From the NCBI RefSeq assembly GCF_001277175.1, contig NZ_CP012257.1, positions 3,720,001 to 3,784,000 on the forward strand: a stretch of 64,000 nt of DNA, read 5' to 3'. Positions 47,946 to 57,967 of this stretch are shown here, one piece after another. The notes beneath the pieces were generated by a model that saw only the letters and a program-made list of their open reading frames with translations, was not told the origin of the DNA and did not search any database. The DNA is from Cronobacter universalis NCTC 9529 (GTDB taxonomy: Bacteria > Pseudomonadota > Gammaproteobacteria > Enterobacterales > Enterobacteriaceae). A program made the translations under genes and the position numbers. Position 1 is the first letter of the stretch. Each line of letters begins with the position of its first letter.

Positions 47946-48797
47946 TCAGAGCAGAAAAATCTCTTCCACCAGCGCATTGACCAGCCGCCTTGCGGAGCAG
48001 ATCCGCGGCATTCCCAGCGACACGCTCTGCCAGGTTTGCGTCACCGACCAGCTGACCGGCTGGCGCTCCCCGTCATGCACCGCCCCCAGCCAGCAGAGCA
48101 TATCTTTATGCTCCAGCAGGCCCGGCTGCGGCGGCGTATGCAGCCATTGCTGATAGAAATGCCGCGTATGGGGCGAGGCATTAACGCTGTGCGCCAGTCG
48201 GAGGGTCGTCTCGTCATACACGGGTTGCAACAGCGCGGTTTTGTCGCCCGGCTCGCCTAAACGCAGGGCGTCGCCGAACGCGCCCCAGCGCAGCTCTTCC
48301 AGCGCCACGTAACAGCGCCCGGCGGGCGACCAGCCGTTAAACTCGCCGTTTTTCCAGCGCGCCATAACCTCGCTGACGTGGCGCTGCGCCGCTATCGCCA
48401 AATCGCTCTGGCGTAACTGCGCTTCCAGCCGCGCGGCGCTGTGCTGATAGTGTCCTGCCGTCACCTCAAGCGCCTGTGCGAAAGGCGCGGCGGCCCCCTT
48501 CTCGCCGAGACGCTGGCTGCGGCGCGCCAGCGCCTGCGCCGTCAGGCTTAACGCCAGATGCCCGGGCGAACTCTGGCGCGAAAGCGACTCCAGCATATGC
48601 AGCGCCGCCATCTCCGGCGGCGCCACCGCAGGCCCGGCGGCGATCAACGACTTCTGCAGCCGTTCGCGCACCTTTTGATGCTGCGGATGCGAACGGCCAT
48701 CGCGGGCTTCTTCTTCGCCCTTCGCCAGATCCACCATCAGTCGCCCGCGCAGCGCGCGTAAATGTCGGCCCGGCCCTTCAACCAGTGACCCGTTCAT
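47946..48797 (-). CDS. yjcZ: YjcZ family protein, partner of crfC
   Basis: This 283-residue protein of unknown function begins MNGSLVEGPGRHLRALRGRL and is rich in Ala, Leu, Glu and Arg, so it is probably mostly helical. A conserved-looking segment, GEFNGWSPAGRCYVALEELRWGAFGDALR, lies near 149-177. It has no signal peptide or membrane segment and matches YjcZ of E. coli as I remember it. It starts 5 bp after the crfC stop, with GGAG inside the end of crfC, so the two are almost certainly translationally coupled. A shared role in chromosome or colonisation functions has been proposed for CrfC; for YjcZ only the linkage is known to me. Confidence 0.85.
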   Translation of the reverse strand: MNGSLVEGPGRHLRALRGRLMVDLAKGEEEARDGRSHPQHQKVRERLQKSLIAAGPAVAPPEMAALHMLESLSRQSSPGHLALSLTAQALARRSQRLGEKGAAAPFAQALEVTAGHYQHSAARLEAQLRQSDLAIAAQRHVSEVMARWKNGEFNGWSPAGRCYVALEELRWGAFGDALRLGEPGDKTALLQPVYDETTLRLAHSVNASPHTRHFYQQWLHTPPQPGLLEHKDMLCWLGAVHDGERQPVSWSVTQTWQSVSLGMPRICSARRLVNALVEEIFLL

Positions 48798-48802
48798 GGC
48801 GG

Positions 48803-51163
48803 TCAGTGCTCCACGGAAAACAGCGTCTGTATATCATCACGCAGCGCACGGGCGTCTTCTTTAATGTCACGCGCGGTACGGGCGCACTGTTGCAGCTTCT
48901 CACGCAGGGCGTTGCGCGACGTCTCGCTCTGCTGACGCGCCGCGAGGCTCTGCTGAAGATTCGCTTCAATCGCCGCCATCGCCATCTGAAATTCGGCGAA
49001 AAATGTCGCCATACCCGCCGTCACGGAGATATCCACCTGGGCGTTCATCGCCTGGCGGATCTGCGCGCAAAAACGGCTGACGTAACGGCTCAACGTCTGC
49101 TTAAGCTGCGGCAGGTTAATCACGTAACGCGAGCGCATGGCCGTACAGTCATCCCAGCCCAGATCCTTGCTGGTGATCCAGCGCGCTACGGTACCGCGCA
49201 CGCCGTTATTACGCGGCGCGCTGGCGACCGGCACGCTCTCTTCTTCAATGACATCGTTAAAGAGCTGATGCGCGTTGAAATTAAGCTGGCTGCGCTGAAA
49301 CACCGGCAGCGTGATATGCGCGCGAAAGCCGGTGCGGCGCAGCCCTTCCGTGACGCGCAACTCCAGCGGCGCCAGGGCGGCGCGCAGGATATCCCCCAGC
49401 GCCGTCTCCAGATCGCTGAAATGGACGGCCAGATCGCGGGTCAGATTCTCCTGAACCGACAGCAGGATCAGCTCGCAGGAGGCGCGAATTTTATGCAGCA
49501 GCATCCGCGCGTCGCTCTCCTGATCCAGGATCAGCTGTTCGCTGCCTGCGTCGAAATCGCTCCCCCAGGTCACCGCGCGGCGAACCGGACTGCTGAGCGA
49601 CAGCGGCGGCACTTTGCCCGTCTCAAAATAGCTGGCGATATCCGCCAGTACCTTCTGTTCATGACCCGCAATTGTCTCCGACGCGCGCCCCAGCGCCTGA
49701 ACAACCTGCTCCTGAATGGCTTTGCTGGCGTCTGCCTGGCAACGTTTTAGCTGTGCGATGTCATTATTCATTTGAGAGATACTCTCCACCAGTTGGTCAT
49801 TTGCGATATCGAGCCCCTGACAGCGAAAGTCCAGGTAGTCTCGGGTGCATTGCGCAGAGTGAATTAATTTTGCGCAGGCCGAACGCAGCGCGTAGAGCGA
49901 AGCGTGCGCGTGCGCCGTGTGCAGAATCGCCCGAATGGGCGCTTCGAAAAGGGAGTCCTCCCACAGCAGATCGGCGGCGTGGCGCAGGTGCGCGATGTCG
50001 GCGAAATCGGCGTTTCGCCAGCGGCGGCCCAGTGCCGCTTCGGCGAAATCCTGCACCCAGCGCTGCTCGTCATACGGCGGCAGCGCGCCGTGCTCTGCAA
50101 GCTCCTGGCGCGCGCGGTTGGCCAGGTAGCCCCACATGGAAGAGACCGGAAAAATATGGGCCGGATCGATGGCGCCTTTCATCAGCGTGCCGGCGATCAG
50201 CGCCCGAACCTGATCTTCATCGTCGCTGTTGCGATCCAGTTGATCGAACTTATTCACCAGCGCGTAGAGCGGCACCGATTCGCCCACCGCCGCGAGCGCC
50301 ATACGCACCTCTTCGTCGGAGGTGGATTTCAGCTGGGTATAATCCATCACCGCCAGTACGGCGGACGCGCGGGCAATCTGCTCCTGGAGCATCTTTTGCA
50401 GGTGCGGCTGTCCGGCTTCGTTCGGGCCGGGGGTATCCAGCAGGGTCAACTGCCCGAGCCCGCGATCCATATCGGCAAGGTGAGTGAACTCCACCTCTAT
50501 CACCGGAATATGTTCAATGGCGGCGTACGCGCGAAACGGGAACGGCACGTCGAGCACGGCCGAGAGCCGCACCAGATCGTTTAAGCTTTTCAGACAGTGG
50601 AAAATTGGCTGGGCGCCGAGATAGTTTTTTTCAAACGAAGTGCCGTTAAGGATGCGCGCCAGCAGGGCGTCCATATCGCGGTCGATTTCTAGGCGCAGCG
50701 CCAGGCTGTCGCGCGAAGCGTTCTGTAACCGGACGCGTAGCGCCTGCATCAGGGTTTCTATCGGCCCGGCGTGTGTGAAATGCAGTACCGGCTCTTTCTG
50801 GCCTGGCGTGTGACGAATCAGCGTCGGCAGCGCCGTCATGGGGCGGTTGCGGTTCGGCAGGACCTCCTTGCCGACGATAGCGTTGATGGTGGTCGATTTC
50901 CCCGCCTTCATCGTGCCGACAATCGCCAGCACCATCTCTTGTTGGGTGGTTTTTCGCAGCTCGGCCTGCAGCACCTCCTGCTGCGCCTCCAGCCCGCGTA
51001 AGGAAAAATGAAGCGGATGCACGGCAGCCTGTCGACAGGTAACGTTCCCACCGTCACCCTGCACCGCCAGCGGCATTTGTTTCAGGGCGCTGAGATTATA
51101 CAGCGCCAGCTGAAGTAGCCGTTCCGCTTCCTGATTCATTTCAAATACAGTCTGTGTGTGCAT
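48803..51163 (-). CDS. crfC: Dynamin-like GTPase CrfC (clathrin-coat-like replication fork protein)
   Basis: CrfC of E. coli is reported to bind DNA polymerase clamps and hold sister replication forks together. The 786-residue product is a large dynamin-family GTPase. Its motifs are G1 GTMKAGKS (residues 83-90), G2 RPMTALPT, G3 LLDTPGPNEAG and G4 LVNKFDQLDRNSDDEDQ. A long helical stalk region (about 430-786) contains coiled-coil stretches. It is longer than the roughly 742 residues I recall for E. coli, mainly in the stalk. yjcZ follows directly. The upstream 563 bp contain its promoter and strong inverted repeats. Confidence 0.93.
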   Translation of the reverse strand: MHTQTVFEMNQEAERLLQLALYNLSALKQMPLAVQGDGGNVTCRQAAVHPLHFSLRGLEAQQEVLQAELRKTTQQEMVLAIVGTMKAGKSTTINAIVGKEVLPNRNRPMTALPTLIRHTPGQKEPVLHFTHAGPIETLMQALRVRLQNASRDSLALRLEIDRDMDALLARILNGTSFEKNYLGAQPIFHCLKSLNDLVRLSAVLDVPFPFRAYAAIEHIPVIEVEFTHLADMDRGLGQLTLLDTPGPNEAGQPHLQKMLQEQIARASAVLAVMDYTQLKSTSDEEVRMALAAVGESVPLYALVNKFDQLDRNSDDEDQVRALIAGTLMKGAIDPAHIFPVSSMWGYLANRARQELAEHGALPPYDEQRWVQDFAEAALGRRWRNADFADIAHLRHAADLLWEDSLFEAPIRAILHTAHAHASLYALRSACAKLIHSAQCTRDYLDFRCQGLDIANDQLVESISQMNNDIAQLKRCQADASKAIQEQVVQALGRASETIAGHEQKVLADIASYFETGKVPPLSLSSPVRRAVTWGSDFDAGSEQLILDQESDARMLLHKIRASCELILLSVQENLTRDLAVHFSDLETALGDILRAALAPLELRVTEGLRRTGFRAHITLPVFQRSQLNFNAHQLFNDVIEEESVPVASAPRNNGVRGTVARWITSKDLGWDDCTAMRSRYVINLPQLKQTLSRYVSRFCAQIRQAMNAQVDISVTAGMATFFAEFQMAMAAIEANLQQSLAARQQSETSRNALREKLQQCARTARDIKEDARALRDDIQTLFSVEH

Positions 51164-52062: not shown

Positions 52063-52774
52063 CGGCGCCTCAGACCGCGTTTTGCCTGGGCTGGCAGCCT
52101 GCGTTGCCAGTTCCGGGCACATCAGCCGCAGTTCAACTGGACGGAGCTCTGCTCAGAATAAAATAGCGTGCTTACCCGATTTCCCCCTGTGTTTTTTATA
52201 GCCAGCCCCCTTGCCCTCCCGCCTGGTTAACGTGATTGCGCGCTTATTTTCGCGTGCATTTTAAAAAAAGAATAAGACAAAACAGAAAAGCAGCGTAAAA
52301 TAGAAATCAGCAAGATTCTTTCTGTAAATACCCTTTAAAATCAATAAAATAAATAACAACTACACTTCAATGAAGTGTCGCTTAACTTTTCATCAATTTC
52401 TTTTAGGAATATTATTAAGAAATGCCCGAAAAAATATAATTTCTCGTTGCGAAATATAATTATAAAAATAACTCAGGAAAATAGAAGCCGGTCGATATCG
52501 GATTAGCGGAATATCCTTAAAGGCGAAATTAATATATTTACGAGAAAATAATCTTCTTTTTTCTTACCTGACTTAAGCCCAATATTAACATCTCTCATCG
52601 ATGATTCCGTTAAAGGCAGCGCGATCGTCCCTCCCCTTTTATTGCGTCACAATTCATCTGGCTGTCATGTTTGTTTAACAGTAGGGTCATATTAGGCCGT
52701 CAGGATGTGCCGCAACCTGCATCCGGCGGCGTCTGCGACGTACCGCTGCGTTGCGCAGCAGTATGGAGATCCTG
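52063..52774. other. AT-rich gap between yjdM and phnH
   Basis: No gene is supported. From about 52140 to 52640 the sequence is much richer in A and T than its neighbours and has many stops in all frames. A perfect inverted repeat, ACACTTCA-A-TGAAGTGT, lies at 52362-52378. In E. coli this interval would hold yjdN, yjdP and the first phn genes. I see no recognisable remnant of phnG just before phnH. The region could be foreign DNA, a decayed operon or a control region for phnH. Confidence 0.6.
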
Positions 52775-53371
52775 ATGACATTAAATACCGCCTTTGATTC
52801 ACCGGTGCACGATGCACAGCAGTGCTTTCGCCGCCTGCTAAAGGCCATGAGCGAGCCTGGCGTCATCGTGTCGCTACAGTTGCTCCGCCACGGCTGGCAG
52901 CCGCTTGGCGTTGCCACCACCAGCGTGCTGCTCACGCTTGTCGATAGCGATACCCCTGTCTGGCTTTCGCCCGCGCTGGCAAATGATATTGTGCGCTCTA
53001 ACCTGCGCTTTCACACCGGTACGCGGATTGCCGATACGCCGGACGAGGCGGTTTTCGCCATCGCTGATGAAAACCTCAACCCACTCCTGCCCGATCGCCT
53101 GGCCCACGGCAGCGTGATAGCGCCGGAACACAGCGCCACGCTGGTGTTGCAGGTCAATAGCCTGAGCGGCGGGCGAATGCTGCGTCTGACCGGCGCCGGC
53201 ATTGCGGAAGAGCGTATGATCGCGCCGCAGCTGCCGGAGTGTCTGATTGAACAACTGGCCGATCGCCTGCACGCCGGATCGCTCGGCATCGATCTGTTGC
53301 TGACCTGCGGCGATCGTCTGCTGGCCATCCCTCGCACCACGCATGTCGAGATCGCCGACAGCGGCCGTTAG
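52775..53371 (+). CDS. phnH: PhnH, C-P lyase complex subunit, present without the rest of the operon
   Basis: In the phn pathway PhnG, PhnH and PhnI with PhnL form the triphosphate ester of the phosphonate, which PhnJ then cleaves. PhnH is the central dimer of the PhnG2H2I2J2 core and resembles PLP-enzyme folds without PLP. This 198-residue frame is full length (E. coli about 194). It is colinear: [21 protein letters not shown] at the start, [24 protein letters not shown], and the C-terminal [20 protein letters not shown] and [16 protein letters not shown] lies upstream of the ATG at 52775. No other phn gene is in the window. The end overlaps the convergent yjdP by 4 bp. Confidence 0.93.
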
Positions 53372-53795: not shown

Positions 53796-56111
53796 CTAGA
53801 GCTGATAGCGCGCCATCACCTGGCGGTGACGCGTTTCATCCAGTCCGCCTGACATCGCGACATCCAGCCAGTGGATTGGGTGCTTCCAGCCCTGGGTGAA
53901 TTCACGCAGCATCGCGTCCACTTCCAGCGGCGAGACCGACTGCGGCATCGCCAGCATAAAGTAAATGCCAGGCAGCGTTTCGCCGCTTTCGCTGTCAGTC
54001 ACCTGATAATCGGACTCGCAATGCACCCAGATGGCGCCGCCGCGCTGGCGCACGCCGTTCACAAAGGCGTTGAACGTCTCTTCGCCCGGATCGACGCCGT
54101 CGATAAACCAGCTCGGCGCATACTCGCTCTGCTCAAGGGTTTTCACCACGTTATGCACGGGGATGAAATTCTCGCGCTCTTTTTCATCTTCCGGCGGTGT
54201 GTTCAGCAGATTGGCGTCAAACACCACCGACTCGCCCATATGCTGCGGCGCTTTACGCCAGGACGGCTGGAAGACGCGCGCGGTCACCGGGCCCGTGCGC
54301 TGGGCAAAATAGTAATGCTCGTCGTGATTTTCAAAGAAACGCAGACGAACGGTGCCCCACTGCTCCTCAACCGGGCCTTCATCGGTGCTGAACTGCATAT
54401 TAAGACGCGCGCCGGCTTCGCGCACGGTTGTCCAGTCTTCGCTGGCGCTGGCCGCCGTCAGCAGATCCCACAGAATGTTGCTGGCGTCCTCTTCGCGCGC
54501 GTCCATCATCGCCACCGCGTCTTTCAGGTACGCCGTGGCGCGATCGTAGGCTTTCTGGCGCATCGCCGCCTGGCCCGCCAGCATCAGCGGCGCAATCTTA
54601 TGCTGGCCCTGCGGCGTGGCGCGCAGCGCCTGGCTTACGGACTCCAGTTTTTCCCAGTCTTCCTGCGCCTGCGCCACCTGAGCTTCAAACCACAGCGCCA
54701 CATGCGGGAGCGCATCGCGATAGCTTTCGGCCAGCGCTAAGATGTCGTCGTAACGACGCGCATTCAGGAGTGCGGAGAGCAGATGGAACAGCGGCGCGGC
54801 CTCTTCCTGCGGGTGGCGTTTCTGCCAGCCAAGCAGGAGATCCGTCGCTTCGCCCTGCGCCTGGCACGCTTCGAGCGCGGCGCCCGCCAGCATCAGCAGT
54901 TCTTCATCGTCAGGGCGCTGCGCGGAAGCGAGCAGCAGCCACTGGGCTTCCTGCTCCGGATCGCGCGTCACGCCTTCCTGCTGGCCGCGCTCTTCCAGCC
55001 ACGCCATCAGCGATTCGGCAGGCACAGGCAGCTCAACCTGCGTTTCCATGCCCGCTAACTGGCTTGCGAACTCCGCCAGCGCGGCGTCTTCATCGTGCGG
55101 GTTACGCAGTTTCGCGGCGCACTGTTTCGCCTGCATCAGGGCACGACGGGCGACCCAGGTAGCACCACGCGCCAGCGCCAGGCGGATATGGGTTTTCGCG
55201 ACGATAACCGCTTCGCGCCACGCCTGCGCTTCCACGCGCTGTTCAAGGATCAGTTGCAGCGCGCTGCCGGTCTGCCAGTTGTTGTAAGCCGGATTGAGGC
55301 GAACCAGTTGCTCCACCACGCGCACCCAGCGCATGCGGTTATAGGCGGTAAGTCGATCCCACGGCAGCAGCCATTCGCGAGCGTCCTCTTCACGCCCCAT
55401 CAGCGCCAGCACTTCCGCTTTCATCATCATCATGACCTGGCGGACCTGCTCGCTGCTGTTTTCCAGCTCGTCTTCATGAAGCTTATTGATGATCGCCAGC
55501 GCTTCGTCATAACGGCCGAGCAGCATCAACGCCTGCGCTTCGTTCTCTTTCAGGCCATTGACATCCTCTTCGCCTGCGGCGCGGCGCTTTTCCATCTGCT
55601 GATGCACAAAGGCCAGCGCCTCTTCAACCTGGCCTTTGTCGACCATCGCGAAGAACTGCTCTTCAGAAAGGCACAGAAAGCAGCTGCGCAGCGGGGTGAT
55701 TTTCGAGAGCGTCTCCTGGCAAACGGCGATACGCTCATCCGCCCAGCCTGGGCCATCCACATTGCTGTAACAGGCGCTGAGATCCTGGGTCACGCAAATC
55801 GACTGCGGGCACTCTGCGGCGTCGGCCTGGTGAGCGCGCTCAAACAGCGCCACGACATCGCCCAGCGCCTTTTCGCCTTCGCCAAGGTTGCCGATGCGAT
55901 GACGCATCTCCCAGTGGCCAACCATCACGTCAATCCACGGGTTGCCTGAGGTTTTTTTCAGCGCGCGCGCTTCCGGCAGCAGCGCTTCGGTTTTACCGGT
56001 CTGCACTTCAACAACAGACTCGATAAGCTTATTGACATGCTGCGTGATCCAGGGTTTACCGGCTTCCGCGAGATCCCGCTCATATTGCTCATACCATGCC
56101 CAGATATCCAT
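53796..56111 (-). CDS. Large TPR-repeat protein encoded with the Hsp90-like ATPase
   Basis: I do not recognise a named gene. The 771-residue product starts MDIWAWYEQYERDL and has no signal peptide or membrane segment. Most of it (about 1-630) is helical with TPR/SEL-like pairs, for example EALAFVHQQMEKRR with NEAQALMLLGRYDEALAIINKL near 177-225. Others are LLSALLNARRYDDILALAESY near 460 and QAAMRQKAYDRATAYLKDAV near 540. The C-terminal 140 residues look like a globular alpha/beta domain (FFENHDEHYYFAQRTGPV; GAIWVHCESDYQV; PGIYFMLAMP). Its ATG overlaps the Hsp90-like stop in TAATG, with AAGGAAG upstream, so the two are translationally coupled. By analogy with TPR cochaperones of eukaryotic Hsp90 it may be a partner or client adaptor; this is inference. 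Confidence 0.9.
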   Translation of the reverse strand: MDIWAWYEQYERDLAEAGKPWITQHVNKLIESVVEVQTGKTEALLPEARALKKTSGNPWIDVMVGHWEMRHRIGNLGEGEKALGDVVALFERAHQADAAECPQSICVTQDLSACYSNVDGPGWADERIAVCQETLSKITPLRSCFLCLSEEQFFAMVDKGQVEEALAFVHQQMEKRRAAGEEDVNGLKENEAQALMLLGRYDEALAIINKLHEDELENSSEQVRQVMMMMKAEVLALMGREEDAREWLLPWDRLTAYNRMRWVRVVEQLVRLNPAYNNWQTGSALQLILEQRVEAQAWREAVIVAKTHIRLALARGATWVARRALMQAKQCAAKLRNPHDEDAALAEFASQLAGMETQVELPVPAESLMAWLEERGQQEGVTRDPEQEAQWLLLASAQRPDDEELLMLAGAALEACQAQGEATDLLLGWQKRHPQEEAAPLFHLLSALLNARRYDDILALAESYRDALPHVALWFEAQVAQAQEDWEKLESVSQALRATPQGQHKIAPLMLAGQAAMRQKAYDRATAYLKDAVAMMDAREEDASNILWDLLTAASASEDWTTVREAGARLNMQFSTDEGPVEEQWGTVRLRFFENHDEHYYFAQRTGPVTARVFQPSWRKAPQHMGESVVFDANLLNTPPEDEKERENFIPVHNVVKTLEQSEYAPSWFIDGVDPGEETFNAFVNGVRQRGGAIWVHCESDYQVTDSESGETLPGIYFMLAMPQSVSPLEVDAMLREFTQGWKHPIHWLDVAMSGGLDETRHRQVMARYQL

Positions 56112-57967
56112 TAGTTGCTTCCTTCTGTTGTCGGTGTAATAAGTTGCGCCGTGATGCAACTGAATGTGTCCAGCGCCTGGCGAAAGTCATACTCACGGGA
56201 ATCTCCCGTAGCCAGAGCAAGAATAATTTTGAGGCTTTTCAGTAATTGCGTGGCGCCGGGCGCGATGGGTTGCCCGGCACGCCAGGCCTGTGATAAGGCC
56301 TTTACCGCAGGATTGTTAAAGTTGATGTAGAGGCGCACCGGCGCCTGTTGCTCGATTTTGCTGGCAAACTGGCGCGCCAGCATCAGCGCGGCGGTGCTCA
56401 TGCGGCGATCGGCGTCGTCCTGCTCAAGACGCGCTTTAAGCTCGGCGTCACGGTTGACCACCATCACCAGCGGCAGCGTCGCCGGTTCGAAAGAGGACAT
56501 TACGCACTCTTCGTCGTCGCGCAGCTGTTCGCTCCACCACGCTTCTTCTTCGGCGCTGACGTCATGCAGCGCAAAGAGCTGTTCGTTACCCGCCGAGGTG
56601 CCCACTTCCACCAGACGCGCGCCGTAGAGCGTCGCCCAGCGGCGCAGGAACGGCACGACCGCGTAGCGATAACCCAGTGCGACAGGACGGCCCGAAAGCC
56701 GGAACAACATCTCTTCAAAACCGCCCTCTTCGCTGAGCATCACGTTCAGCGTGTTGTTCTGGCGCAGCGCTTTAACCGGCAGATCGCCCTGAGAGGTCGG
56801 GATCAGCAACTCATCTTTCAGCAGATCGAAGAGACGATCGTCGCAGATGGCCGCGCCGAGCAGCGCTTCGTTATGGCGCACCAGCACGCGCCGCCAGACG
56901 GCGGGTTGCTGCTTCGCGAGATCGGCCAGGCCGTTAATCAGCGCCTCGGTGAGCGCCGCCTGCGTGGCGTACCAGGTAACATCGCGCTGTAAATCTTCGC
57001 GGCTCGCCGTCGGCGTAAGGCGATTAGATTCGATAACGCCGCCGACAAAACCCGCCCACGGCGGCAGTAGCTCGCGCGCCTGATCGTCGAGCAGCATACC
57101 GCGCAGAAACAGCGACAGATTACGGTTATCGCTGGTGCCATACGTCGCGCCATCCTGAAGCCAGAGCATGCCTACCGCGTCGCTGTCACCCGAGGGCTCT
57201 ACCAGCAAAGTACAGAGCGGTGTAAACGCGCGTTCGAAGCGGCTGGCGAATTCGATATTCTGCTTCTGACGCAGCGCCGGATGCAGCGCCACGCCATCCT
57301 GCGACGCGACACGCCAGGGCGGCGTAAGGTGGTTCACCGCGGTCTGTTCTTCACCGACAAACAGCGGCTCTTTCATTAATATGCAGTAGCGGCCCAGCAC
57401 ATCGCCCAGCAGCTTGTTGTTGGCGAGATATAAAAACTCGTCTTTGAGATGCAGCGTGACAGTCGCTCCTGGCTCGCGCGGGCTCGCAGGGGTAACGCTA
57501 TACGTTTCGCCGCTGGCGGAGGCGTAAAGCCAGCCTTCCCCCGGCGTTTTCCAGGAGGTGGTGTGTACCGTCACCCGCTCCGCCAACACAAAGGCGGAAA
57601 GAAAGCCCAGACCAAACATGCCGATAAGCCCTGTTTCGTCGTCCTGCTGGCGCAGATGGCGGGTGTAGCCGACGCCGACGGTCGCCAGGAAATCGTGGAT
57701 CTCCTGCTCCGTGAGGCCGGAGCCGGTATCGTGAATAACGATAGTCCGGTTTTGCGCATCGCCCGTGACGCGGATTTCCGCAAGCCGGTCCCCGGTGCCC
57801 TCTTCCAGTCGACGTCTGACAATCGCGTCGTGCGCGTTTTGCACCAGTTCACGGATGGCGACCATCGGCGTGGAGTAAAGGTGTTTGCTGAGCACTTGCA
57901 TCAACCCCGGCAGGTTCACCGGCGTTTCGTGTTGTCCTGTTAATGGCGCGCTAATGAGGTTATCCAC
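56111..57967 (-). CDS. Divergent Hsp90-family (HtpG-like) ATPase
   Basis: The 618-residue product is an Hsp90-type GHKL ATPase clearly distinct from housekeeping HtpG. The N-terminal ATP site has IRELVQNAHDA with Glu40 and Asn44, DTGSGL at 80-85, and GMFGLGFLSAF at 116-126 (HtpG has GQFGVGFYSAF). The middle domain is visible as NLSLFLRGMLLDD (HtpG: LYVQRVFIMDD) and GVIESNRLTPTASREDLQRD. The latter contains the conserved catalytic Arg (R323), matching HtpG DLPLNVSREILQ. The last 200 residues are divergent, and I cannot confirm a dimerisation domain. The start is GTG at 57967 (MDNLISAPL). It is the first gene of a two-gene operon with the TPR protein. Confidence 0.9.
   Translation of the reverse strand: MDNLISAPLTGQHETPVNLPGLMQVLSKHLYSTPMVAIRELVQNAHDAIVRRRLEEGTGDRLAEIRVTGDAQNRTIVIHDTGSGLTEQEIHDFLATVGVGYTRHLRQQDDETGLIGMFGLGFLSAFVLAERVTVHTTSWKTPGEGWLYASASGETYSVTPASPREPGATVTLHLKDEFLYLANNKLLGDVLGRYCILMKEPLFVGEEQTAVNHLTPPWRVASQDGVALHPALRQKQNIEFASRFERAFTPLCTLLVEPSGDSDAVGMLWLQDGATYGTSDNRNLSLFLRGMLLDDQARELLPPWAGFVGGVIESNRLTPTASREDLQRDVTWYATQAALTEALINGLADLAKQQPAVWRRVLVRHNEALLGAAICDDRLFDLLKDELLIPTSQGDLPVKALRQNNTLNVMLSEEGGFEEMLFRLSGRPVALGYRYAVVPFLRRWATLYGARLVEVGTSAGNEQLFALHDVSAEEEAWWSEQLRDDEECVMSSFEPATLPLVMVVNRDAELKARLEQDDADRRMSTAALMLARQFASKIEQQAPVRLYINFNNPAVKALSQAWRAGQPIAPGATQLLKSLKIILALATGDSREYDFRQALDTFSCITAQLITPTTEGSN

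Follow-up and report, generated by a model that had tools for sequence, protein, structure and literature searches.

Eukaryotic Hsp90 chaperones are partnered by proteins built of tetratricopeptide repeats (TPR), among them the cochaperones Hop, FKBP51 and CHIP. Work on bacterial Hsp90 has, to our knowledge, centred almost entirely on HtpG, for which few dedicated helpers are known; HtpG of Escherichia coli is not known to need a TPR cochaperone. Outside HtpG (group A), the ancient bacterial paralogue groups hsp90B and hsp90C have been described (PMC1525184, Chen 2006). By its own statement, the analysis in PMC3708813 (Press 2013) left groups B and C aside, and a search of that paper found no mention of TPR or tetratricopeptide. 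Here we describe an operon in a 64,000-nucleotide stretch of Cronobacter universalis NCTC 9529 DNA (contig NZ_CP012257.1, positions 3,720,001 to 3,784,000 of the forward strand; hereafter the window) that encodes a divergent Hsp90-like ATPase, followed by a large TPR-repeat protein. Hsp90X is used as a working name for second-lineage Hsp90s of the type found in the window.

The original prediction, made from the letters of the window and their open reading frames (ORFs), had offered two roles for this operon: a self-contained Hsp90–cochaperone machine, or a stress or defence module. Our comparisons favour the former. The operon probably encodes a dedicated chaperone pair, in which an ATP-driven Hsp90X would work with a TPR cochaperone or client adaptor that carries putative metal or redox cysteines. 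If this reading is correct, cooperation between Hsp90 and TPR proteins exists in bacteria too, and possibly arose independently of the eukaryotic kind. The pair would also provide a compact two-protein test system, which Pseudomonas aeruginosa carries, as do 245 of the 5426 complete genomes of E. coli, and its cysteine quartet offers a direct chemical hypothesis.

Operon structure and lineage of Hsp90X

Both genes are read from the minus strand, Hsp90X first. The Hsp90X frame (56111..57967) has a GTG start and encodes 618 amino acids (aa); its assignment rests on the ORF listing, Pfam, NCBIfam, a tree and a profile alignment. In the sequence TAATG (56109..56113, minus strand), its stop codon runs into the ATG that starts the TPR gene (53796..56111, minus strand), one base being common to both frames, and both the overlap and the positions of the two ORFs are as originally predicted. 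The longest ORF of the TPR gene, of 787 aa, begins at a TTG, and a start at the ATG of TAATG yields a protein of 771 aa; the latter length agrees with the homologues, and the ATG fits as the start. The TPR protein was delimited by the ORF listing, homologue alignment and the family profile.

Hsp90X passes the Pfam cut-offs of HATPase_c_3 (37 bits; cut-off 25) and HSP90 (30.5 bits; cut-off 24.4). Its best NCBIfam match is PRK14083 / NF010683, ‘HSP90 family protein’, at 270.3 bits, below the equivalog cut-off of 455 bits; against the HtpG equivalog NF003555 it scores 188.1 bits, below the cut-off of 371 bits. Searched as a single sequence against PDB sequences, it matched TRAP1 and HtpG, best over residues ∼10–355. 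Aligning a 43-row family profile with a set of 15 HtpG proteins extended this similarity to residues 18–584, against 12–604 of HtpG, with 22% identity (E 3e-39 in a single comparison). The alignment, weak in its last part, takes in the C-terminal motif LYINFNNPAVKAL (56294..56332, minus strand), whose HtpG counterpart lies in the region of the dimerisation domain. As the profile alignment covers HtpG 12–604, the N, middle and C regions of Hsp90X each appear to have an HtpG counterpart. The earlier description of Hsp90X as otherwise unlike HtpG was thus too strong.

The catalytic residues named in the original prediction are all present as read. The ATP-site block of the N-domain, of the GHKL type (residues 40–121; 57605..57850, minus strand) contains Glu40, Asn44, DTGSG (Asp80 to Gly84) and GMFGLG, and the middle-domain catalytic loop runs from Arg323 to Gln327 (56987..57001, minus strand). 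Glu40, Asn44, Asp80, Gly84, Arg323 and Gln327 are invariant in the Hsp90X proteins of 78 of 78 paired loci (see below), and no loss of ATPase residues was found. The first five are also found in 15 of 15 HtpG proteins, five of five Gram-positive relatives and two of two others; Gln327 is kept in all 15 HtpG proteins, but in only one of the five Gram-positive and one of the two other relatives. These intact residues suggest that Hsp90X, a full-length Hsp90, would hydrolyse ATP.

A maximum-likelihood tree of 37 proteins separated the 15 HtpG proteins, so labelled beforehand, from the 22 others with support of 100/100. Among the latter, the 15 Hsp90X rows, all of the Proteobacterial type, formed a clade of their own (100/100), and five Gram-positive rows formed another; the join of these two clades was weaker (84/72), and the program flagged long branches. 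The Cronobacter genome also carries an HtpG-type Hsp90 elsewhere, which is 29% identical to Hsp90X over 21–355 and groups with HtpG. On this phylogenetic evidence Hsp90X is a member of a second Hsp90 lineage and not an HtpG: it shares with group A the N–middle–C layout and the catalytic Glu, Asn, Asp, Arg and Gln, and differs in identity, in lineage and in having a TPR gene alongside. The Streptomyces and Listeria proteins named ‘HSP90 family protein’ fall on the Hsp90X side of the tree and have TPR-like operon partners, whereas the window protein stays under the score cut-off of that family and the Proteobacterial-type rows form their separate clade. From the published descriptions of groups B and C, rather than from labelled sequences, we infer that Hsp90X may belong to one of them.

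Pairing of Hsp90X with the TPR protein

When genome contigs were scanned with the TPR family, 113 relatives came up; 80 loci, under 25 genus-level labels assigned from record titles, were kept. An Hsp90X gene lies directly upstream on the same strand at all 80. The spacing, measured at 78 loci (L034 is cut by a contig end and L082 is in pieces; L063, among the 78, contains unknown bases), is 51 nt or less at 71, with overlap at five of these, and the largest gap is 640 nt. Pairing of the two genes is thus close to absolute.

Whole-genome searches gave a similar picture. In a sample of 398 Pseudomonadota genomes, 45 matched the TPR profile (E 0.001), five of them over its full length, and the other matches listed were short and of at most 53 bits. 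Hsp90X was present at E 1e-90 in exactly the same five genomes. In the order to which the window belongs, 394 genomes were searched and three carry Hsp90X: the window's own, G616 and G414. In G616, Hsp90X is 40% identical to that of the window, and a TPR protein encoded directly downstream shows 28.7% identity across its first 335 residues. In G414, Hsp90X is 50% identical, and the TPR gene is not adjacent; the whole-genome search found it on another contig (715 bits). Across both samples, all seven genomes with Hsp90X also have the TPR gene, six of them in tandem. The converse case, TPR without Hsp90X, was looked for in the 398-genome sample and in part of the 394 genomes of the order. Pairwise distances of the two proteins were closely correlated among 29 representatives (r 0.94), a value reached in none of 2000 permutations.

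Homologues of the two genes are thus not regularly found apart; the rare cases are G414 and solitary TPR relatives in Streptosporangiales, described below. A contig from a Chloroflexi metagenome-assembled genome (L080) carries a pair that is nearest in both proteins to those of Lysobacter and Luteibacter, which reflects either joint transfer of the two genes or mis-binning of the contig.

The TPR protein, its cysteines and related pairs

The TPR family profile (82 rows) matches designed TPR proteins, with a best E of 3.7e-32 and a best stretch of 471–541, and also SRP72 (395–585) and a designed PPR protein (154–255). The window's TPR sequence by itself passed no Pfam cut-off and matched TPR models barely. 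The 771-residue helical-repeat protein originally proposed is therefore TPR-like by its family profile, while the single sequence stays under all Pfam cut-offs. Its last 194 residues (53799..54380, minus strand), conserved in the alignment, match nothing in Pfam even at E 10 and belong to no family known to us.

Four cysteines of the TPR protein, arranged C101-x4-C106 ... C144-x2-C147 (55671..55811, minus strand), do not vary in any of the 82 homologues aligned (82 of 82), and a fifth, C114, is kept in 81. The partners in G414 and G616 keep all five, although that of G616 is the most divergent. A full-length relative in Nonomuraea gerenzanensis (28.5% identity) has no Hsp90X within 10 kb, and the sole Hsp90 place listed in this 11.85 Mb record groups with HtpG. 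Solitary relatives of this actinobacterial type were compared as the best 120 of 207 found (P0241–P0360), which are mostly close kin of one another and for which genome context was viewed in N. gerenzanensis only. C101 is kept in 120 of 120, and C106, C114, C144 and C147 are lost in 120 of 120. Streptosporangiales-type actinobacteria thus retain a TPR relative minus four of the five conserved cysteines. Since these proteins have lost the cysteines that G414 and G616 keep, the cysteines track with the presence of Hsp90X within the Proteobacterial-type family, on few independent events. Their loss where Hsp90X is missing suggests that the CX4C...CX2C quartet probably serves a joint function as a metal or redox site.

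TPR-like partners also occur beside second-lineage Hsp90s of other phyla. Among plasmid records, the second-lineage Hsp90 genes of Streptomyces (three records), Paenibacillus (one) and Listeria (two) each have a gene for a CxxC-bearing helical-repeat protein directly downstream. Pfam TPR cut-offs are passed by the S. globosus partner, by one Listeria paralogue and by the partner that follows a distant second-lineage Hsp90 in G052; for the Paenibacillus and two Streptomyces partners the Pfam TPR matches are weak. These TPR-type partners range from ∼320 to 1140 aa. When residues 1–330 of the Proteobacterial TPR protein were compared with the Gram-positive partner by hhalign, CxxC fell on CxxC over 173 columns (probability 47%, P 1.9e-4); the full-length protein gave a probability of 25%, and a control segment 1%.

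In one Listeria record (L142:6803–8771) the CxxC TPR-like partner is present as a tandem pair of paralogues behind the Hsp90 gene. The Listeria Hsp90 gene that adjoins fri is expected to be lmo0942, and by gene number only the first partner is presumably lmo0941. PMC3534079 places lmo0942 beside fri, the same neighbour at about the same gap as in the second-lineage record, and PMC6901971 gives lmo0941 as a gene of unknown function with a selection signal. On a Pseudanabaena plasmid (L141:4222–9804), a related Hsp90 of 877 aa has an extra C-terminal region; a TIR-domain gene and a helicase gene lie nearby, and a TPR gene is two genes downstream.

Co-occurrence with Hsp90X, also out of tandem, together with the repeated TPR partnering in other phyla, argues that the TPR protein is a dedicated partner. 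In the mechanism that we propose, an Hsp90X dimer would run the usual ATP-driven clamp cycle, as its intact residues suggest. The TPR protein would be its obligate partner in a physical complex, would steer the ATP cycle, and as an adaptor would bring or hold a restricted set of clients. Only in the presence of Hsp90X would the cysteine quartet matter, probably as a metal or redox site. The eukaryote-like EEVD–TPR clamp is absent: none of 78 Hsp90X C-termini ends in an EEVD tail. The TPR protein also differs from eukaryotic TPR cochaperones in being encoded in the same operon as its Hsp90, in being larger and in carrying the quartet. The originally predicted machine gains support from the pairing, the two-gene unit, the ATPase residues and the coupled divergence of the two proteins; its cochaperone role stays at the level of inference.

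A wider proposal can be put forward tentatively, as one that we think is more probably wrong than right. It would make the pair part of a second bacterial Hsp90 system that spans phyla, has a TPR partner with a cysteine metal or redox centre, uses no EEVD clamp, may be devoted to the maturation or sensing of a metal or thiol state, and predates the split of Proteobacteria, Actinobacteria and Firmicutes.

Alternative roles, expression and genomic surroundings

Several observations weigh against a dedicated pair or against its wider extension. In the contig scan, 33 of the 113 matches are not among the kept loci, and 46 of the 80 that are come from Xanthomonas (22) or Stenotrophomonas (24). The Hsp90X match in one of the five paired Pseudomonadota genomes, G302, holds a stop codon. 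G414 is a draft of ∼70 contigs, and the contigs bearing its two genes may be chromosomal neighbours. The correlation of distances is expected from shared ancestry too. TPR relatives without Hsp90X exist, as in Nonomuraea. A 14-kb Xanthomonas vasicola record, pXVH14 (L161), carries Hsp90X close to one end but gives no match to the TPR family; as it repeats genes of pXVH29, a 29-kb record of the same strain with both genes, truncation of a copy or an artefact of assembly may account for it. Of seven records with the Gram-positive CxxC partner, six have an adjacent Hsp90; the seventh, on an Actinomyces oris plasmid, keeps its cysteines with no Hsp90 annotated within 6 kb on each side, which weakens a strict link between cysteines and Hsp90 in Gram-positives. 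Common descent of the Proteobacterial and Gram-positive partners, at hhalign probabilities of 25–47%, is suggestive and not proof.

The main rival reverses the relation of the two proteins. The TPR protein may be a dedicated client, which Hsp90X folds or whose cysteine metal site it loads or protects, the matured TPR protein then doing the cellular work. One-to-one pairing suits a client as well, and loss of the quartet in relatives without Hsp90X is what would be expected if Hsp90X matures that site. The varied size of the TPR-type partners beside second-lineage Hsp90s is better suited to a partner role, however, and the metal in the cysteine site is itself putative. We regard this explanation as unlikely, though it is the strongest of those that compete with the chaperone pair.

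It is more improbable still that the two proteins act in the same pathway from a common promoter and make no contact, Hsp90X acting alone like HtpG. Co-transcription by itself would account for the linkage, and E. coli HtpG, as stated above, is not known to need a TPR cochaperone. Against this stand the retention of both genes out of tandem in G414 and the finding that TPR-type genes adjoin second-lineage Hsp90s in several phyla but not HtpG. Downstream of canonical HtpG, no TPR gene was found among ten genes (eight match other families, two none); these come from ten of 15 loci, the rest having no, short or shadow ORFs, with some ORFs cut by the end of the flanking sequence.

A role in heat shock was considered and rejected. 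Eleven enterobacterial upstream regions, including that of the window, were scanned with the sigma-32 consensus CTTGAA-n-CCCCAT. No sigma-32-like site was found in ten, the window's among them, where at least 58 of 200 shuffled sequences scored as well; the Budvicia region (L036) reached ten of 12 matches, with eight of 200 shuffles as good. In contrast, three of four HtpG controls reached 11–12 matches. Synteny with a branched-chain amino-acid transport operon identifies the orthologous pair of P. aeruginosa, which we take to be PA1068/PA1069 with PA1069 as the TPR gene. On heat shock, PA1069 changed by log2 −1.98 (∼4-fold down), while htpG rose by 2.83, according to PMC4957987. The idea of a stress module is thus not supported for heat. 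It may hold for another stress, since PMC4053335 reports that PA1069 is induced by calcium and/or biofilm growth; the gene is low or absent there in efhP mutants at high calcium.

The same source notes that PA1069 is apparently operonic with an Hsp90 gene, so this link had already been remarked on. PA1069 is also a co-immunoprecipitation hit of BatR (PMC13411936) and appears in tables of PMC7044273 and PMC5541441; ‘PA1068’ in PMC9995270 and PMC8315991 is a strain name and irrelevant here. A literature search, mostly without subscription papers, thus found mentions of PA1068/PA1069 in omics tables and, among the papers listed, no study dedicated to them or to the Hsp90X–TPR pair.

The last alternative, a stress or anti-phage defence module, was examined through distribution, similarity and neighbours. 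In its favour, presence in E. coli and in the 398 Pseudomonadota genomes is patchy, and the ATP domain is weakly similar to TmtA models of PADLOC, to MzaB and to RIIA-type phage proteins. Similarity is confined to this shared domain, with the sole exception of one uncharacterised PHROG that matches residues 284–511. At E 1e-10, 91 flanking ORFs taken from 18 loci, out of 120 listed, gave at most nine member matches in PADLOC, to mad3, mad8, LeoA and LeoBC only; not checked individually, these look like generic ATPase/GTPase similarity. The TPR gene occurs in three of 72,556 plasmid and one of 50,697 phage records, and the Nonomuraea and phage-collection records among them look chromosomal. As the flanks are mostly housekeeping genes too, enrichment in defence islands was not seen in those examined, and defence, though part of the original prediction, is rejected as the main explanation and is very improbable.

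Housekeeping surroundings were found in E. coli, Salmonella, Pseudomonas and Xanthomonas. The E. coli pair is always chromosomal; in two records viewed its neighbours are fdhD on one side and yiiG or frvR on the other, one of these records having a frameshifted TPR gene, and in K-12 fdhD and yiiG adjoin at this site with no operon between. A location in a variable part of the chromosome, as originally proposed, is therefore borne out in E. coli. On a Salmonella Infantis contig the pair follows a few genes after fdhD, and in P. aeruginosa it adjoins the transport operon mentioned above. Among the 25 flanking-gene Pfam families listed, out of 95, transport and metabolism predominate; an HSP70 gene and a YaaA gene for peroxide stress also occur. 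The flanking ORFs fell into 170 clusters, and just three of these reached three or more genus labels: TPR, Hsp90 and a shadow ORF antisense to the pair. The ORF calling was crude, the TPR and Hsp90 clusters having 64 and 54 members for 80 loci. A third operon gene was accordingly rejected, none being conserved across three or more of the 25 genus labels, although a short one could be missed because ORFs below 90 aa were uncalled.

Two further genes of the window may be recorded. One is an orphan phnH (52754..53371, plus strand; Pfam PhnH, 190 bits), although the Cronobacter genome has no match to PhnI, a core C-P lyase gene. Downstream of the pair is a dynamin-like gene (47946..51163, minus strand), presumably yjdA/crfC-like, with counterparts at L005:13697–16923 and L003:9154–12377. 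Cronobacter, Kosakonia and Phytobacter have a dynamin-like gene and yjcZ downstream of the pair; neither gene adjoins it in the two records viewed from E. coli.

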